Assembly (NCBI GenBank): GCA_020630675.1
Contig: JAHDIR010000020.1
Span: 1 to 45,856 of the forward strand
Direction: 5' to 3'
DNA: 45,856 nt
DNA from: Bdellovibrionales bacterium
GTDB lineage: Bacteria > Bdellovibrionota > Bdellovibrionia > Bdellovibrionales > UBA1609
Below, piece by piece: positions 9,289-17,471 of this stretch. A program made the translations under genes and the position numbers. The notes under the pieces were generated by a model. That model did no database searches, was not told where the DNA came from, and saw only the letters and a list, made by a program, of their open reading frames with translations. Position 1 is the stretch's first letter; each line of letters begins with the position of its first letter.

Positions 9289-11227
9289 ATTTTTCATTTT
9301 TTTCTTACTAGGGTTATTTACTTTACCCACGGCAGAAGCTTCTGTGAAGGTTTATGCAGAAGTAGACCGTAATAATATGTATGAAAGCGACACTTTTACT
9401 TATACGGTCACTGTGGAAATGCCGAGTGATGGAGTTAGTGTCGGGGAGCCAAAGCTTCCTAATATTGCAGGTTCTTTTGACTTACTAAATTCTCAAGTCA
9501 TGCGCAGTAGTCAGTCTTCATTGGTTAATGGCGACTTTGAAGTTAAAAAAAGTATTATCTATAATTTTATGATGGCTCCCAAAAAAGTAGGTCAACTTAA
9601 GCTGGGTCCATCAACTGTTTTGGTCGATGGCAAAACTATGAAAACCAAGGATATTTCTGTTCGTGTTCAAAAAGAGACTCAACAAAGGGCACAAAACCAG
9701 GGTCAAGACAGGTATAATCAAAGAAGAAATCGCCAGCGTTCGCAAAATCGTCGCATGGACCCTTTTGAAGATATGGACTCCATGTTTTCGCAGTTACTGA
9801 GACGTCAGCGAGGCGGTTTTATGGGGGGAGGACCTGGAAATGCAGGGCCTCCAATAGACCCCGAAGATTCATTTTTTATAAAAGTTGTGGTGGACAAAGC
9901 AAAAATATATGTGGGAGAGCAGGTGACAGCCACTTGGTATTTGTATACCCGTGGCCAAGTGCGTGACATAGACACTCTTAAGTACCCAAGTTTGAATGGA
10001 TTTTGGAAGGAAGACATCGAAGTGGCCACTCGTTTAAACTTTCAACGAGAGATTGTTAATGGAGTCGCCTATAACCGTGCCCTTTTGGCAAGCTATGCTT
10101 TGTTTCCAATTAAAAGTGGCTCTATAGAAATTGATGCTTACGAAGCTAAATGCAGCATTTTGCTTCCAAGTTTTGGTTTTGGTAAGACTGTTCAGGGCAC
10201 AAAAAAAAGCCAAGTACTGACCTTGAAAGTTGAAGACCTACCTTTGGAGGGTAAGCCTGATAACTTTACCGGTGGAGTGGGTAATTTTACACTAACTCAT
10301 AAACTTGACATTAACAGTGTGCCGGCAAACCAGCCCGTTAAGTTAAATATAAAGTTTGAAGGACAAGGAAACGCAAAGCTTATAAATTTACCGACGATTG
10401 ATTTACCATCCACTATAGAAATGTATGACAAACAATCAACGGCTAAATTTTTTAAAAATGGAAAAAGTTATAAAGATTATGAAATTTTATTAGTACCTAA
10501 AGAAGAAGGTGAAGTTTTAGTTCCAGAAATGTCTTTTAGCGCTTTTGATCCTGAAGCAGAACAGTACTATGAAATTAACCCTGTGCCTGAGCTATTTTTA
10601 AGTGTAACTCGAGCACGAGAGGGAAGTAAAATTAGCGATGTTCCTTTGCAAGATTTAGAGTCGTCAGAAGAAGAACCTGAGCAAGCTTATATTCCTGTTA
10701 TAGCCACAACTTGGGACGGAGCAGGAACTAGTTTTTTACTGCAAAAAAACACTTTGTTTTGGGCTGTGTTGTACTTTTTTATTTTTGCTAGTTTTATTTA
10801 TATCTTCTTAAGAGAACTTGGCTTAACGCAAAGAAAGAAAACTCTGCAAAAGTTAATTCAAGCAAGATTCAAAAAAATTGATCAGCTATCCACTCAATCT
10901 GAAAACTGGAGAGATGTTGGAGCCGAGCTCACAAATATGATGTATCTTTGCCTGGGGGCCGTTAGTGGAGAGGGGGGAGCTAGTCTTGAGTTTGATAAAA
11001 TGATTGAAAATTCTCCCCCAAGTGTAAGGCGTGAGCTTTCTTCAGAAATTTTAAAAAGAGTTAAGGCTTGTGAAACCATTAGCTTTGCGCCGGAAAGTAT
11101 TGTTGGCTCGTTAAAGGATCCAAAAAATATTAAAGAACAAATAAAAGGTATCAATAAATTAGCTATAAAAATGATTGATATGGGCTTTGGGGATAGCAAG
11201 GGCGAATCATTTATTGAAAAATCTTAA
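9272..11227 (+). CDS. batD: BatD, secreted/membrane-anchored Bat protein
   Basis: A 651-aa protein. The frame is open back to 9245, but the GTG at 9272 has AAGGAG seven bases upstream and begins a clean signal peptide (MIKTGRFFIFFLLGLF..PTAEA). The large periplasmic part is made of repeated beta domains typical of BatD (YAEVDRNNMYESDTFTYTV near 25-45; VVVDKAKIYVGEQVTATWYL near 205-225; GNFTLTHKLDINSVPANQP near 337-355). A Q/R/N-rich linker lies at about 135-165 with a Gly/Pro patch after it. One membrane segment follows near 490-510 (FWAVLYFFIFASFIYIFL), then a cytoplasmic helical tail of about 140 residues. The stop lies 14 bp inside the lytic transglycosylase gene. Confidence 0.9.
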   Translation: MIKTGRFFIFFLLGLFTLPTAEASVKVYAEVDRNNMYESDTFTYTVTVEMPSDGVSVGEPKLPNIAGSFDLLNSQVMRSSQSSLVNGDFEVKKSIIYNFMMAPKKVGQLKLGPSTVLVDGKTMKTKDISVRVQKETQQRAQNQGQDRYNQRRNRQRSQNRRMDPFEDMDSMFSQLLRRQRGGFMGGGPGNAGPPIDPEDSFFIKVVVDKAKIYVGEQVTATWYLYTRGQVRDIDTLKYPSLNGFWKEDIEVATRLNFQREIVNGVAYNRALLASYALFPIKSGSIEIDAYEAKCSILLPSFGFGKTVQGTKKSQVLTLKVEDLPLEGKPDNFTGGVGNFTLTHKLDINSVPANQPVKLNIKFEGQGNAKLINLPTIDLPSTIEMYDKQSTAKFFKNGKSYKDYEILLVPKEEGEVLVPEMSFSAFDPEAEQYYEINPVPELFLSVTRAREGSKISDVPLQDLESSEEEPEQAYIPVIATTWDGAGTSFLLQKNTLFWAVLYFFIFASFIYIFLRELGLTQRKKTLQKLIQARFKKIDQLSTQSENWRDVGAELTNMMYLCLGAVSGEGGASLEFDKMIENSPPSVRRELSSEILKRVKACETISFAPESIVGSLKDPKNIKEQIKGINKLAIKMIDMGFGDSKGESFIEKS

Positions 11228-13427
11228 CTTCATCTTTTTTGTTTTAACTCTTTCTGTAGCTCCCATTGTGCTTGGTGCTGTGCCAACTAAAGTATCTACG
11301 AAATTGCAGCTGACTAACCCTAAACCTTGGTTGGGTGGGGCAAAAACTTTGAGTGGCTACAAAAAACATTTTTTTGAATTATATAAAGCTCATGGCGATA
11401 AAAAATATTATTTATGTAAAAAAAATAAAAAATTTCCTTCAGGTGCACCTGAACGTTTGAGGGTTTGGTGGTCTTATTTGCAGTTGCAATGTGCATTTAA
11501 AAGTGACTTTGGTAAAAAAAACTCCAGAGCCTTAAGGGCTACTTTGAATAATCATAGGATAGATTTAACTTCTTATGCCGGGCAATCTGACCAGCTTAAT
11601 AAGTCATTAGTTAAGATTTTAGTTCAACTTTCTGGCGAGAAGTACTACACGCTAAGCTCGTCTGAAATAAGTTTTTTAAATCAACATCAAGGAGAGCTTC
11701 AGGGCAAGGAAAGAGCGAAGTATTATAATTTTTTAGCCCTCAAACATATTGAAAAAAAAGAATGGTCTCCGGCAGCTGAGATGTACTTTCAGGCGTTACA
11801 AATTTCAGGTGAACCTATATACGCGACTCGTTTAAAAACCTTGGTGAATAATAAAGAGCAGCTAAAACCTCAGTTTAGTGAATTTATTCAGTCGATAAAT
11901 ATTAATATGGGTAAGAAAGTAAGCTTTGCAAAATTCTATAAGTATTTTCGAAGAAAACAATATGTCACAGCCTTCAAACTAGCTGTTGAAGGTTTGAATG
12001 CCGATGAATCTATTGACCGAAAGGTTTTATCGAAAATGTTTAAGGTTTTATACAAAAAAAATGATGGGTTGCCTTTGGACAGTCGCATTGAAAAGCAGGC
12101 CTTGAGTTGCCATAGCGTCTGTTTGTTAGAGTTGGGAAAAAAATATTTTAGTAAGCATAAATACTCTGAGAGCCGAGCTTTTGCGGTCAAAAGCCTCGAA
12201 TTAAATAGTGCGCCAAAGGCCATGATGTTGGCGGGCTTTTCTTCTTTACAGCTCGGGGATTATAAAAGCGCTATCCAATTTTATAAAAATAGCATGAAGT
12301 CGGCAAAAGAAAAGTCTACTGAATATTTTGAGTCTGTTTTTCGTCTGGGATTAATTTATTATCGTACAAAAAAGTATAAGCAGGTGGTTCAGTTATTTTC
12401 TAATTTAAAGAAGTATAAAAGCATAAATGACTTTCATCTAATGAGTCATTATTGGTATTGGCGAGCTTTACAGTCGCTCAAAAGTAGTAAAGCCAATAAA
12501 GTAAGAGACCTTTTAATTCAGCAGTACCCTTTAACTTATTACGGGTTAAAAGCCAATCAGGAAAAAAATAAAGGCCAACTTAAACTTCCACAGTCGTTAT
12601 CTCCCATTGAAGTTGACCCCTCTTGGACGAAACAGCAGCAAGTGTCATGGCTTAATTACAAAGAGCTTCTGAGTCTTATGATGACTGACTTAGCACAAAA
12701 AGAACTTAGAGTGCTGTTTGATTTAAGCCATGATGGGCAGACGGCTTTATATTCTTATTTTTCATCTTTAGGTAGTCATCACTTTTCGGCCATTCGAGCC
12801 ATGAACATGATATGGGATAAAGATCCACAAACATATTTTTCGGGTTTAACAGTTAAACTTACTCTCCCGACAGAGTTTGAAATTTTGATAAATGATTACG
12901 CTCAAAAAAATAAAGTAGAGCCTGCCCTGATTCAATCACTCATTAAACAAGAGAGTTCTTTTCGATTGCGAGCCGTGAGTTCATCCAATGCCATGGGATT
13001 GATGCAATTAATTCCCATGACAGCAAAGGACTCCGCACGGTACTTGAAGTTGTCGTCTAGAAATTTACGATCTAGAGTGTTCCAGCCTGAACTTAATATA
13101 CGTTTAGGTACAAGTTATTATGCCCGGCTGCAAAGGGCTTTTCTGGGTAATGTTCCTTTTGCTTTAGCTGCCTACAACGCTGGTATTGGAAATATTCGCC
13201 GTTGGATGAAGCCTCGTAAAAAAGAACTTGGCCCGTTGCCAGAACTTTCAAGCTCCCTCCCAGAAAATGAAATTTGGATAGATGAATTACCATGGGCCGA
13301 AACCAACTTTTATGTAAAAGCCATTTTACGAAATTTGATTCTTTATAGGTTTTATTATCGACAGCAACAGGTTATTCCTGAGCCCTCGTGGCATTATAAA
13401 GTCGGGCAAATCAGTTTGCAAAAATGA
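11214..13427 (+). CDS. slt: soluble lytic murein transglycosylase (Slt type)
   Basis: A periplasmic enzyme that cleaves peptidoglycan to 1,6-anhydro-muropeptides. With the TTG at 11214 it has 737 residues and a good signal peptide (MKNLNFIFFVLTLSVAPIVLG); an earlier TTG at 11175 in the same frame would put charged residues ahead of it. The long N-terminal part is an alpha-helical superhelix with TPR-like repeats (YFSKHKYSESRAFAVKSLEL; GLIYYRTKKYKQVVQLF). The C-terminal SLT domain has catalytic Glu580 in KQESSFR, then SSSNAMGLMQLIP and AYNAG. The overlap with batD makes it part of the Bat operon, an unusual partner tying Bat to wall remodelling. It converges with the next gene after three bases. 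Confidence 0.93.
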   Translation: MKNLNFIFFVLTLSVAPIVLGAVPTKVSTKLQLTNPKPWLGGAKTLSGYKKHFFELYKAHGDKKYYLCKKNKKFPSGAPERLRVWWSYLQLQCAFKSDFGKKNSRALRATLNNHRIDLTSYAGQSDQLNKSLVKILVQLSGEKYYTLSSSEISFLNQHQGELQGKERAKYYNFLALKHIEKKEWSPAAEMYFQALQISGEPIYATRLKTLVNNKEQLKPQFSEFIQSININMGKKVSFAKFYKYFRRKQYVTAFKLAVEGLNADESIDRKVLSKMFKVLYKKNDGLPLDSRIEKQALSCHSVCLLELGKKYFSKHKYSESRAFAVKSLELNSAPKAMMLAGFSSLQLGDYKSAIQFYKNSMKSAKEKSTEYFESVFRLGLIYYRTKKYKQVVQLFSNLKKYKSINDFHLMSHYWYWRALQSLKSSKANKVRDLLIQQYPLTYYGLKANQEKNKGQLKLPQSLSPIEVDPSWTKQQQVSWLNYKELLSLMMTDLAQKELRVLFDLSHDGQTALYSYFSSLGSHHFSAIRAMNMIWDKDPQTYFSGLTVKLTLPTEFEILINDYAQKNKVEPALIQSLIKQESSFRLRAVSSSNAMGLMQLIPMTAKDSARYLKLSSRNLRSRVFQPELNIRLGTSYYARLQRAFLGNVPFALAAYNAGIGNIRRWMKPRKKELGPLPELSSSLPENEIWIDELPWAETNFYVKAILRNLILYRFYYRQQQVIPEPSWHYKVGQISLQK

Positions 13428-13430
13428 GTT

Positions 13431-14180
13431 TTACTGGCTGCCGTCAGAAATGGCTGGTTGCGCTTTTTCTATGGTATTGACTGCTTGAGTTTGATCAACT
13501 TTAAGCCAGTCTCCTAAAATTTTTTGAAAACTGAAATTATTTGTTATGTTGGAGTGATTCCCTTCTTTGACGACACTTTGGTGGGGTTTAAAGTAGTTAT
13601 TGATGAAAACATCATTACATTCATTAGAGAGAGTTTCAAAAAAGTCATGATAGGGCAAATAGAGAATATCATTTTTGTTCTCTTCTTTATTTGTTAGCTC
13701 AACAAAGCTTGATGTTTCTTTGGCGGGAGTACTTATCGAGTTAGATGGTGGGAAATTAGATATTTTTTTATTTACGATATAAAGATTGTATTTGAGTTTG
13801 CAAATACCGAGGTCATGTTCATATTTAACGGCACCACTTGTTTCATTTGTGCTGTTAATTTTTTTTGACACATTCTTGGCAAGAAAGTCCATATTCATTT
13901 GGCATAAGCGCTGTAACTGTCCGTCAGTTTTATCGGCAAAGTTAACTCCACAAAATTGTAATGGGTTGTAGATGTACGCTTTTTTATCTTTGGAAGGAGG
14001 TGTTAATGATGTAGGGGTTTGCGTATTTGTGATGTCAATGTGAATGGGTATTGTCGTAGCACTCGTTCCTTGCTTTTTATCAAGGGCAGATTCAATGCTC
14101 GTACTTGTTTGGCCAAAAGATTGTGAGTAACCCAATATTGATAAAATATAAAATAAATAAAATGTGTGAATAGCTTTCAT
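13431..14180 (-). CDS. secreted protein of unknown function
   Basis: A 249-aa protein with an N-terminal signal peptide (MKAIHTFYLFYILSILGYS, cleavage near SFGQ at about residue 23). The mature part is polar and Thr/Ser/Asn-rich with four or five cysteines (FCGVNF, RLCQMN, LGICKLKYNLYIV, SNECNDVF), suggesting disulfides in the periplasm or outside. I recognise no family. No Shine-Dalgarno precedes the ATG; a sigma-28-like motif ends only nine bases before it, so the mRNA could be leaderless. It converges with slt and is divergent from mltD. Confidence 0.75.
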   Translation of the reverse strand: MKAIHTFYLFYILSILGYSQSFGQTSTSIESALDKKQGTSATTIPIHIDITNTQTPTSLTPPSKDKKAYIYNPLQFCGVNFADKTDGQLQRLCQMNMDFLAKNVSKKINSTNETSGAVKYEHDLGICKLKYNLYIVNKKISNFPPSNSISTPAKETSSFVELTNKEENKNDILYLPYHDFFETLSNECNDVFINNYFKPHQSVVKEGNHSNITNNFSFQKILGDWLKVDQTQAVNTIEKAQPAISDGSQ

Positions 14181-14451: not shown

Positions 14452-14508
14452 CAATAGCTGTATTGTGGTCATGGCATAAGTTTTATAACATAAGGTATGA
14501 CTATTAAT

Positions 14509-16266
14509 ATGAAAATTCACTCATCCATTGTTATTTTAATCAGTTTAATTCTGTCGGCCTGTGCAACCTCGCCCTCATCAGATAAAAAAGTGGGAGCTTA
14601 TTCCGTTCAACCCTATGAGGTTTTGGCAACGCCAATGACTTCTGAAACAACAGAAGAGTATCTTTCGGCCTCAGACGTTATCGTTCCTAGTAAAGACCTT
14701 CCTGAGCCCGGTCTTAGTGCAGTTTTAAAAAAAGAAGATTTAAGCTCGACTCCGCCTTTGAAGCCATCTCCTTTTGGTGAAATACCTTTAACTATAAATA
14801 AGTATGTGCAAAAGTGGATTAACTTTTATACAGGTAATGGCCGTTCACATATGCAGCGCTATTTATCGCGCTCCAGCCGTTATTTACCAACAATGAAAAA
14901 AATTCTTGCACAAGAGGGATTGCCAGAAGATTTAGTTTACTTGCCAGTGATTGAGTCGGGGTTTCAAAGTAAAGTGAATAGTCATGCTGGGGCCTCTGGG
15001 TACTGGCAATTTATGAAAGGAAGCGCTAAAGACTATGGCTTAACAGTAGGGCGACATGTTGATGAAAGACATGACTTTGTTCGTTCTACAGAAGCTGCTG
15101 CCACTTACTTAAAAAGATTATACACTTTGTTTGGAGATTGGTACTTGGCCCTAGCGGCTTATAACACAGGTGAAAACCGAGTTAAGAGTCAGTTGATGAA
15201 AGCTGAAACCAGAAATTATTGGGTTTTAGTGAAAAGAAAAAAACTTTATAGAGAAACTAGAAACTACGTTCCTAAATTTATTGCAGCCACACTCATTGCA
15301 AAAAACCCAGTTCTTTATGGCTTTACAAATATTCCTTACCAGAAAGAAGTGGCCTATGAATCTATGTATGTTCATCGCCCGGTTAGTTTACAGAAATTAG
15401 CCAAAAAAATTGGCACACCTCTTAAGAAGTTAAAAAAATTAAACCCAAGGTACCGTACTCATTATGTGCCTATTTATAGAGGAAAAAGCTCTCTTGTTAG
15501 AGTGCCTCCTGGAAAATTAGCCTTAGCTCAGAGATCTTTAGCCTCTATACAAGCAAAAAGACCAAGAGTTTATAGCTCAGCAAAGACTTTTACTCACAAA
15601 GTAAGACGGGGCGAAAACTTATCATTAATTGCTAAAAAACACGGGGTGAGCGTTGGACAATTGAGGAGATCAAATTCTTTATCTAGGCGTTCTATTTTGC
15701 GAGTTGGCCAGAGATTAAAGGTGGTTAAGGGAAAAAGTTATAGCACCACTCGAAGGGCCTCGAGATCTTTGGCTAAGGCAAAATACCGCCCAAGTTTCCA
15801 TAGGGTGAAAAAAGGAGAAAACCTTTCTGTTATAGCTAAAAAGTATGGAATGACTTTAGGACAACTTTTATCACTGAATTCTATGGGTAAAAATAAAACC
15901 TTGCGAGTGGGTCAAAAGCTAAGTCTTAAAAGTTCACGTGCCCGATCCTCCCATTTAGCTAAAGTAAAAAAGTACAAAGTGAAAAAGGGAGATAACTTAC
16001 AGAAAATATCAAAGGCTTATGGTTTAAGTGTTTCGAAAATAAAGAAAGTGAATAAGCTAAAGTCGAATAAGATAATGGTCGGACAAAGTTTAAAGCTTAT
16101 GGGTGTGGACTTGAAGGTTCATATTGTTAAGCGTGGGGAGAACTTAATTGGTATTGCCAACAAATATAAAGTGTCTTTGAGCCGCCTCTTAAATATAAAC
16201 AACATAAAAAATAAATCAACTTTACACATTGGACGTAAAATTAAAGTGCCTGTTGCAATGAATTAG
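14509..16266 (+). CDS. mltD: membrane-bound lytic transglycosylase MltD with LysM repeats
   Basis: A 585-aa lipoprotein. The ATG at 14509 (five codons after another ATG at 14497 that sits too close to AAGG) gives signal peptide MKIHSSIVILISLILSAC with lipobox LSAC. The catalytic domain (about 90-260) has Glu149 in LPVIESGFQS, then AGASGYWQFM and LAAYNTGENR, as in family-1D lytic transglycosylases. A degenerate LysM-like segment (VSLQKLAKKIGTPLKKLKKL) is followed by four clear LysM modules (FTHKVRRGENLSLIAKK; FHRVKKGENLSVIAKKYG; YKVKKGDNLQKISKAYG; HIVKRGENLIGIANKY), reaching the end. LysM binds glycan strands. Its 3' end faces the terminator of the c-di-GMP riboswitch RNA, so read-through there would be antisense to it. 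Confidence 0.95.
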   Translation: MKIHSSIVILISLILSACATSPSSDKKVGAYSVQPYEVLATPMTSETTEEYLSASDVIVPSKDLPEPGLSAVLKKEDLSSTPPLKPSPFGEIPLTINKYVQKWINFYTGNGRSHMQRYLSRSSRYLPTMKKILAQEGLPEDLVYLPVIESGFQSKVNSHAGASGYWQFMKGSAKDYGLTVGRHVDERHDFVRSTEAAATYLKRLYTLFGDWYLALAAYNTGENRVKSQLMKAETRNYWVLVKRKKLYRETRNYVPKFIAATLIAKNPVLYGFTNIPYQKEVAYESMYVHRPVSLQKLAKKIGTPLKKLKKLNPRYRTHYVPIYRGKSSLVRVPPGKLALAQRSLASIQAKRPRVYSSAKTFTHKVRRGENLSLIAKKHGVSVGQLRRSNSLSRRSILRVGQRLKVVKGKSYSTTRRASRSLAKAKYRPSFHRVKKGENLSVIAKKYGMTLGQLLSLNSMGKNKTLRVGQKLSLKSSRARSSHLAKVKKYKVKKGDNLQKISKAYGLSVSKIKKVNKLKSNKIMVGQSLKLMGVDLKVHIVKRGENLIGIANKYKVSLSRLLNINNIKNKSTLHIGRKIKVPVAMN

Positions 16267-16304
16267 TTTTTGTCGATTTTTTTGAAATTTATCTAAAAGA
16301 GAAT

Positions 16305-16341
16305 AGAAAGGGGAACCCACCAAGCAAGACTGCTTGGCGGG
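16305..16341 (-). terminator. terminator of the riboswitch RNA, with a competing antiterminator
   Basis: The minus strand reads CCCGCCAAGCA-gtct-TGCTTGGTGGG, an 11-bp stem with one G-U pair, followed by a pyrimidine tract. The same position is an A-C mismatch on the plus strand, so the stem belongs to minus-strand RNA. Its 5' arm overlaps AAGCCCG (16338-16344), which can pair with CGGGCTT (16395-16401) just after the aptamer, giving a possible antiterminator. Confidence 0.75.
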
Positions 16342-16410
16342 CTTATGCGGGGATTTTTTCCCGAGTTACCTGTCCTTAATAGTTCAAGTACCAAAAGCCC
16401 GATTTGCTTA

Positions 16411-16503
16411 CCTTTGGCAGCTGGCTGACATAGGCTCCGAAGAGCCTTTAGTCCCTATAGCTTTGCGTATTACAGTTTCCTGCAGTTTGCCCTGAGACAA
16501 AGG
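16411..16503 (-). promoter_or_regulatory. c-di-GMP-I (GEMM-I) aptamer
   Basis: On the minus strand every signature is present: P1 CCTTTG (16498-16503) with CAAAGG (16411-16416); CAGGGCAAAC; P2 capped by a GAAA tetraloop (CAG-GAAA-CTG); the invariant ACGCAAAGC; and P3 capped by GGCTC-TTCG-GAGCC with the tetraloop-receptor halves CUAA and UAUG; then CAGCCAGCTGCC. The second G of AGGGC corresponds to G20 of the Vibrio Vc2 aptamer; G there is associated with c-di-GMP and A with cGAMP specificity. Ligand is therefore predicted to be c-di-GMP. Confidence 0.95.
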
Positions 16504-16592
16504 ATAGGAATCACTCAGGGAGTGTTATTCCTAAACTATCTTACCTCCTTGATAAGAATTTAGACGTCTTGTCTAAACTTCACGTCCTTGTA

Positions 16593-16621
16593 TATATACT
16601 TTAACGCAATGCGTTTGCTAA
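16593..16621 (-). promoter_or_regulatory. promoter of the riboswitch RNA with palindromic spacer
   Basis: Minus strand TTAGCA (16616-16621), 17-nt spacer, TATATA (16593-16598). The spacer contains a perfect 13-bp palindrome AACGCA-a-TGCGTT (16603-16615), an apt place for a regulator that acts between -35 and -10. Start would be near 16586. Confidence 0.5.
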
Positions 16622-16679
16622 ATAAAGAAAATTTACTGAAGTGGATCAAATAAATATGGGCAGTTATGAGACGTTTAAG

Positions 16680-17471
16680 TTAAGTCAGTTGAGCTTCTGA
16701 AACAAAGCCACCAAGTCTTTGAAAGGCTTTGGCAGCAGGGCTTTCAGGCTTTCCTTGTATAAATGGGATTCCGCTTTCAGAGCAAACAGCTACGTGGGGG
16801 TCGAAGGGAATTTCTGTGATTTTATTGATGTTGTGGGCACTTAAGTAAGTATTGAGTTGGCCTTTGGGAAATAAATCGTAGCTCACTTCACTTCCAGGGG
16901 GAGTGAAGGAGGACATATTTTCAACAACCCCCAAGATAGGGATGTTGATTTTCTTAAACATATCTATGGCTTTTTGAGCGTCAACCAGGGCAATATTTTG
17001 TGGTGTACAAACCACGACGGCTCCAGAAACGGGAACTTTTTGAGCGATGGTTAAGCAAATATCTCCTGTGCCGGGAGGTAGGTCAATCACGAGGTAATCG
17101 AGCTCTTCCCATAAAACATCTTTGAAAAATTGGTCGATGGCTTTAAATAACATAGGGCCTCGCCAAATAACAGCTTGCTGTTCATCGACTAAAAAGCCCA
17201 TGCTCATAACTTTAATGCCATATTTATTTATGGGTATGATTTTTCCGTTTTCGTTCACCGCAGGCTTTTGATTTAAGGCTCCCATCATTCGCGGAACACT
17301 GGGGCCGTAGACATCGGCGTCAAGAAGTCCAACCTTCATTCCTTTTTCTTTAAGCGAGATGGCAAGGTTTATAGAGACTGAGCTTTTACCGACGCCCCCT
17401 TTGCCGGATCCAACAAGAATTACATTTTTAATACCAGGAATGGGGCTTTGGCCACTGAAAGGATTGCTCAT
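16680..17471 (-). CDS. mrp: Mrp/ApbC-type P-loop ATPase lacking the CxxC motif
   Basis: A 263-aa ATPase of the Mrp/NBP35 family with deviant Walker A GSGKGGVGKSS (21-31), VGLLDADVYGPSVPRM (47-62), DLPPGTGD, and VVENMSSF. Mrp proteins carry and transfer Fe-S clusters. The N-terminal DUF59 domain of longer homologues is absent, which is common. Less usual, the region after ENMS, where the family has Cys-x-x-Cys for the bridging cluster, reads FTPPGSEVSYDLF with no cysteine; the three cysteines present are elsewhere. It may therefore not bind a cluster in the known way, or be a related ParA-like carrier. The start follows AGAGG. It is divergent from glyS and upstream of the c-di-GMP RNA on the same strand. 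Confidence 0.9.
   Translation of the reverse strand: MSNPFSGQSPIPGIKNVILVGSGKGGVGKSSVSINLAISLKEKGMKVGLLDADVYGPSVPRMMGALNQKPAVNENGKIIPINKYGIKVMSMGFLVDEQQAVIWRGPMLFKAIDQFFKDVLWEELDYLVIDLPPGTGDICLTIAQKVPVSGAVVVCTPQNIALVDAQKAIDMFKKINIPILGVVENMSSFTPPGSEVSYDLFPKGQLNTYLSAHNINKITEIPFDPHVAVCSESGIPFIQGKPESPAAKAFQRLGGFVSEAQLT

Follow-up and report, generated by a model that had tools for sequence, protein, structure and literature searches.

The window, the whole 45,856-nt stretch of DNA analysed here, comes from a predatory-type bacterium and carries on its minus strand a locus for a structured RNA. Upstream of the RNA, on the same strand, is a gene for an Mrp/NUBPL-type P-loop ATPase (16680-17471; Pfam); downstream and convergent is a gene for an MltD-like lytic transglycosylase with an SLT domain and four LysM repeats (14497-16266, plus; Pfam). 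Between them, at 16501-16413 (minus), lies a c-di-GMP-I (GEMM-I) aptamer, which Infernal aligned over its full length (model positions 1-87) with the Rfam covariance model RF01051 at 68 bits (E 2.5e-11), the gathering score being 35 bits. The aptamer has a GAAA tetraloop on P2, a UUCG loop on P3 and a canonical core. An earlier note, made from the letters alone, had described just such an aptamer and proposed an Infernal search as its check; the search confirms the description. It is the only RF01051 copy in the 3.1-Mb genome, and the 306-nt minus-strand stretch around it folds to -103 kcal/mol, 5.2 SD below dinucleotide shuffles. In GEMM-I RNAs, G or A at the specificity position tells c-di-GMP from cGAMP. 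Since this base is G, not A, in the window aptamer and in every other member read, c-di-GMP rather than cGAMP is the predicted ligand.

No gene follows the RNA on its own strand. The first gene reached is the convergent mltD, and the next minus-strand ORF past the RNA is at 13431-14180. Since the first gene is convergent and the transcript has no conserved ORF, the window lacks what defines a cis-acting riboswitch, control of a gene that follows on one and the same RNA. The earlier note's claim that no same-strand gene lies downstream holds for the window and for its genus. Two SLT-type lytic transglycosylase genes lie close by, one with TPRs (11175-13427) and the one with LysM repeats; the 249-aa ORF between them (13431-14180, minus) is without any Pfam match.

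The same note had assigned the RNA its own promoter and terminator, and these are partly supported. Where the two would be expected, a consensus scan detected neither; a -10-like element and a 3' stem are nevertheless conserved. The putative -10 element GCGTTAAAGTATATA (16593-16607, minus), missed by the scan, is conserved in three congeners, and the putative transcript start is expected near ACAAGG at about 16591 (minus). This -10-like GCGTTA element matches a (G)TATTCT element enriched in relatives, TATTCT being present in 29 of their 71 loci (6.5 expected). Farther upstream, TTTGATCCAC (16641-16650, minus) is a possible activator or UP site suggested by motif enrichment in relatives; it occurs exactly in 4 of 71 loci (0.0 expected), and TGAT[AC]CA in 16 of 71 (2.4 expected). 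The motif TTTGAGA was seen upstream of merRNA in 21 of the relatives' 71 loci (2.2 expected). Palindromes, CTCATTTTGAG among them, also precede the promoter in relatives, and together with the motif they may mark a site for a shared regulator. At the 3' end, the hairpin GCCCGCCAAGC/GCUUGGUGGGU (16315-16343) has a strong, conserved stem and, with the U-tract after it, forms the putative terminator (16299-16343, minus). That U-tract, which reads UUCCCCUUUCUAUU in the window, is imperfect; congeners have UCCCCUUUUU(U) there. In the window it is too weak for terminator scans; most relatives have strong terminators.

The position of the RNA points to merRNA of Bdellovibrio bacteriovorus. A 2,657,893-bp single-contig genome, presumably that of strain JSS, has one RF01051 match, and so has a 3,782,950-bp single-contig genome that we take to be B. 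bacteriovorus HD100. In the latter the sole match is at 1,073,868-1,073,951 (minus), with mrp 460 nt upstream on the same strand. This match falls inside the published interval of HD100 merRNA, 1,073,741-1,074,185 (minus) (PMC3627812). Of the loci that could be tested, 51 of 87 have mrp on the same strand before the RNA, and 50 of 82 have an MltD-LysM gene converging on it from downstream. Location within the published coordinates, mrp/mltD synteny and the single copy in each genome support the window RNA as a merRNA orthologue; the earlier note had guessed at this counterpart and suggested comparing the two loci. The window RNA has the orthologous position and is a stand-alone c-di-GMP-I RNA with no coding gene downstream. 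It lacks, as do its congeners, the flanking micro-ORFs found in HD100, a family trait that we newly propose here and that is outside the published definition. Like merRNA of HD100 (PMC3627812), it has a single c-di-GMP-I aptamer, has mrp upstream on the same strand, stands alone and is followed by no gene of ordinary size. It differs in being shorter, in having hairpins in place of the first ORF in its 5' part and no second ORF in its 3' part, and in adjoining a convergent mltD. In attack-phase HD100 cells, merRNA draws about as many reads as all coding sequences together (2,038,479 RPKM, 5006-fold over growth phase), and the published RNA ends at its terminator (PMC3627812). A 2024 study reported merRNA as down-regulated in stator mutants (PMC11323537). 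The literature searched showed no functional follow-up of merRNA and no description of micro-ORFs in it.

The RNA reaches beyond Bdellovibrio. RF01051 is present, in exactly one copy each, in 91 of the 144 genomes examined from the class and in 89 of the 141 from the order, counts made under stricter filters that may miss weak copies. The 2013 paper found merRNA without conservation outside the Bdellovibrio lineage (PMC3627812), a statement contradicted by the 91 positive class genomes; merRNA occurs throughout the order and is no Bdellovibrio speciality. The earlier note was right about the identity of the RNA. GGDEF enzymes and CsrA are present in all 103 good genomes (four GGDEF enzymes in the window's), so neither explains where merRNA is present or absent; both were tried as correlates and set aside as uninformative because they are universal. 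Many reduced genomes (1.2-2 Mb) of the window's own family, f1, are without merRNA, and most of these keep GGDEF and CsrA. In another order of the class, two loci (L123 and L124) have short ORFs preceded by a Shine-Dalgarno sequence (SD) after RF01051, MISASLAGDYGAMPVKC and MDKHLEATTLIQPTYSG, each with its stop; in L123 the SD of this ORF pairs with pyrimidines 5' of the aptamer.

In most relatives merRNA carries conserved micro-ORFs that flank the aptamer, a feature newly found here. ORF1, upstream of the aptamer, is preceded by an SD and is about 9-19 codons long (62 members, 51 distinct peptides). Its peptides end in DPPPK or HDEPPK before the stop; examples are MSKLPKEWLLDPPPK, MKNRIHDHHDEPPK and MRKRIFSHNDKSPK, and that of HD100 is MRTHEHHDDELK. 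Codons with a single difference were synonymous 2031 times and non-synonymous 1402 times in frame, compared with 528/2788 and 1128/2799 in the other two frames, the sequence pairs in this comparison not being independent. With close Bdellovibrio copies removed, and with a C-terminal pattern that was picked after seeing the data, 43 of 71 loci had ORF1; Markov shuffles gave 0.1 on average, and the reverse strand gave 0. In Bdellovibrionaceae the stretch from aptamer to terminator holds ORF2, which ends in DWFHSP or FHSP and has a stop codon that abuts the terminator. ORF2 reads MEGTNTYKDWFHSP in HD100 and MEVESSVTKVTQNYIMDWFHSP in the genome taken as JSS. Of its ATGGAA starts, 47 of 49 are in frame with the end over nine different lengths, and ORF2 was found in 32 of 68 loci (0 in shuffles). 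By coordinates, both HD100 ORFs should lie within the published merRNA transcript. Family f5 has a PPY/PPP-rich ORF that begins 3' of the aptamer and extends into the terminator. In two f5 loci (L039 and L073) the post-aptamer micro-ORF, beginning MDITPIFRPPYPPPK and MDTMPIFSPPTPPPK, overlaps the terminator, so a terminated RNA would have no stop codon. One locus (L040, genome G044) has three tandem micro-ORFs 5' of a single aptamer, MSIAKFLRLDPPPE, MAKVKIFRLDPPPE and MKLHSKQWNLFPPPI, each with its stop.

The aptamer is enclosed by a helix between pyrimidines on its immediate 5' side (CCUUCC in most members) and a purine strand on its 3' side. In the window the strands are CCUAUCCUU (16500-16508, minus) and AAGGACAGG (16369-16377, minus). 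With only the aptamer core as anchor, 59 of 63 loci have a canonical first outward pair in this helix (43.2 expected), made up of 48 C-G, 8 A-U and 3 U-A, and other families have different yet complementary sequences. In ORF2-bearing relatives the purine strand either serves as the SD of ORF2, as GGAAGGA does 6-8 nt before AUG, or includes the first codons of ORF2 (AUGGAAGG); the helix covers the ORF2 SD or start in families f5, f8 and f11 and is present without ORF2 in f1 and f10. Energy folding of the window gave the enclosing helix a probability of 0.0 when free and 0.06 with the aptamer forced; since the energy model alone does not form it, the switch model rests on conservation. A competing helix joins the CCAAAG of the aptamer's 3' edge to CUUUUGG (16391-16397, minus) in the minimum-energy fold, and its pairing is kept in four congeners. 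An upstream AAGGAGG:CCUUCC pairing was considered as the switch and rejected: its mean z was only -1.1, and it does not covary, since CCUUCC changes together with the downstream strand and AAGGAGG does not change. In Bdellovibrionaceae, CCCCUUAG was spotted by eye as a candidate anti-aptamer element.

The window's genus was compared in three alignable congeners, the window included, and one partial one. They have in common the aptamer, the enclosing helix (UCCUU/AAGGA in all four), the competing helix, the 5' hairpins and the 3' stem. One 5' hairpin, predicted by folding as UUUAGAC-AAGAC-GUCUAAA (16558-16578, minus) and kept in congeners, is at the place of ORF1 in most relatives. Another (16539-16557, minus) presents the SD-like AAGGAGGU (16543-16550) with no start codon after it. 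Neither ORF1 nor ORF2 was found in the window or its congeners. Two candidates for ORF1 were rejected in the window: TTTGATCCACTTCAGTAA, as a decayed copy, lies before the promoter element and lines up with TGAT[AC]CA of ORF-less relatives, and GTG AAG TTT AGA CAA GAC GTC TAA (about 16582) has too short an SD spacing and is not kept in congeners. Because the window and its congeners share no usable start codon with a plausible conserved ORF, merRNA reads as non-coding in this genus. Other genera of the same family carry ORF1, which makes loss more parsimonious than original absence. The earlier note's orphan RNA with no gene to control is thus what the window and its genus have, whereas in most relatives conserved micro-ORFs flank the aptamer. 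Its interpretation is supported with two amendments, the order-wide spread and these micro-ORFs.

We give slightly better than even chances to the view that merRNA is a micro-peptide mRNA throughout the order, with a c-di-GMP aptamer between two conserved micro-ORFs, a covarying helix that hides the second start and a second stop that abuts the terminator. The window's genus would then be a secondary non-coding derivative in which the sensor RNA has outlived the ORFs.

On balance we consider it probable that the window RNA is its genus's merRNA orthologue, a stand-alone c-di-GMP-I RNA acting at the RNA level, likeliest as a sink or reservoir and possibly with an output in trans, and that in relatives it is also a micro-ORF riboswitch. 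The RNA would be about 290 nt long; its transcription would start a short way past mrp and stop short of the convergent mltD. Binding of c-di-GMP would stabilize the aptamer with the enclosing helix, and the free RNA would re-pair CCAAAG with CUUUUGG. In ORF2-bearing relatives the ligand would close the ORF2 start region and lower ORF2 translation. As no ORF is left in the window's genus, output there would be at the RNA level, most likely from an abundant RNA that holds and releases c-di-GMP; an output in trans through exposed purine-rich loops is a possible addition. Assuming a cell of about 0.05 fl and a few hundred mRNAs, premises of our own, we arrive at a merRNA concentration in HD100 on the order of ten micromolar, which exceeds the usual levels of c-di-GMP. 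With a nanomolar Kd, an RNA this abundant would have to titrate c-di-GMP whatever its other roles. A pure sink needs the aptamer only, and conservation of the enclosing and competing helices speaks for a switch with an output. The loss of the micro-ORFs in this genus could be a decay of function, though the RNA itself is well conserved.

If merRNA were instead an ordinary family of cis-acting riboswitches that regulate the micro-ORFs, ORF2 above all, the window copy would be an ORF-less relic or a copy being repurposed. The in-frame ORF2 starts, the excess of ORF1 over shuffles and the helix over the ORF2 SD or start in f5, f8 and f11 are all as this would have it. Yet the window's genus, with no ORF, keeps aptamer, hairpins and enclosing helix in four species, f1 and f10 have the helix without ORF2, and a cis-riboswitch would not be expected to reach the massive expression level that merRNA has in HD100. 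We regard this explanation as rather unlikely.

Read-through controlled by c-di-GMP, giving an RNA antisense to the convergent mltD transglycosylase gene, is improbable. The weak U-tract of the window would permit it, and in several of the 50 loci with a convergent mltD the gene is 115-150 nt away; but in 32 of the 82 testable loci, including the genome taken as HD100, the neighbour is another gene or absent, strong terminators are present in most relatives, and published merRNA stops at its terminator (PMC3627812).

The AAGGAGGU element, AGGAGG-type, is conserved order-wide with no start codon of its own and sits largely unpaired in a hairpin loop in the window's genus, so it might titrate CsrA or 30S subunits under the control of c-di-GMP. 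We think this quite improbable: in many other groups the element is paired (mean unpaired 0.29 against a background of 0.41 in other families), and CsrA, present in every good genome, is uninformative for being universal. That the window RNA is a cGAMP-sensing GEMM-Ib RNA is very improbable given the G at the specificity position in all aptamers read, even though B. bacteriovorus has a Hypr enzyme, Bd0367, that produces cGAMP (PMC9140294).

The window RNA can be compared with further known systems. Geobacter cGAMP GEMM-Ib riboswitches belong to the same Rfam family and fold, but the window RNA has G for A at the specificity base and no regulated gene. With classical c-di-GMP-I riboswitches (Vibrio cholerae Vc1/Vc2, C. 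difficile, B. thuringiensis Bc1) it shares the aptamer fold, the GAAA tetraloop and the specificity G; unlike them it has no downstream gene and is putatively its own transcription unit, and its relatives have flanking micro-ORFs of 7-22 codons. TnaC-type leader-peptide attenuators have Pro-stop or PPP ends. The window's relatives, and not the window itself, are similar to these in having a very short conserved ORF with a C-terminal proline before the stop and an ORF2 stop that abuts the terminator; they differ in that no operon follows.

The micro-ORFs are the surprising part of this analysis. Bdellovibrio merRNA is enormously abundant, and order-wide conservation, two micro-ORFs and a helix that covers a start make its role directly testable. 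A genus that keeps the RNA and lacks both ORFs offers a natural control for telling a function at the level of the RNA from one at the level of the peptides.
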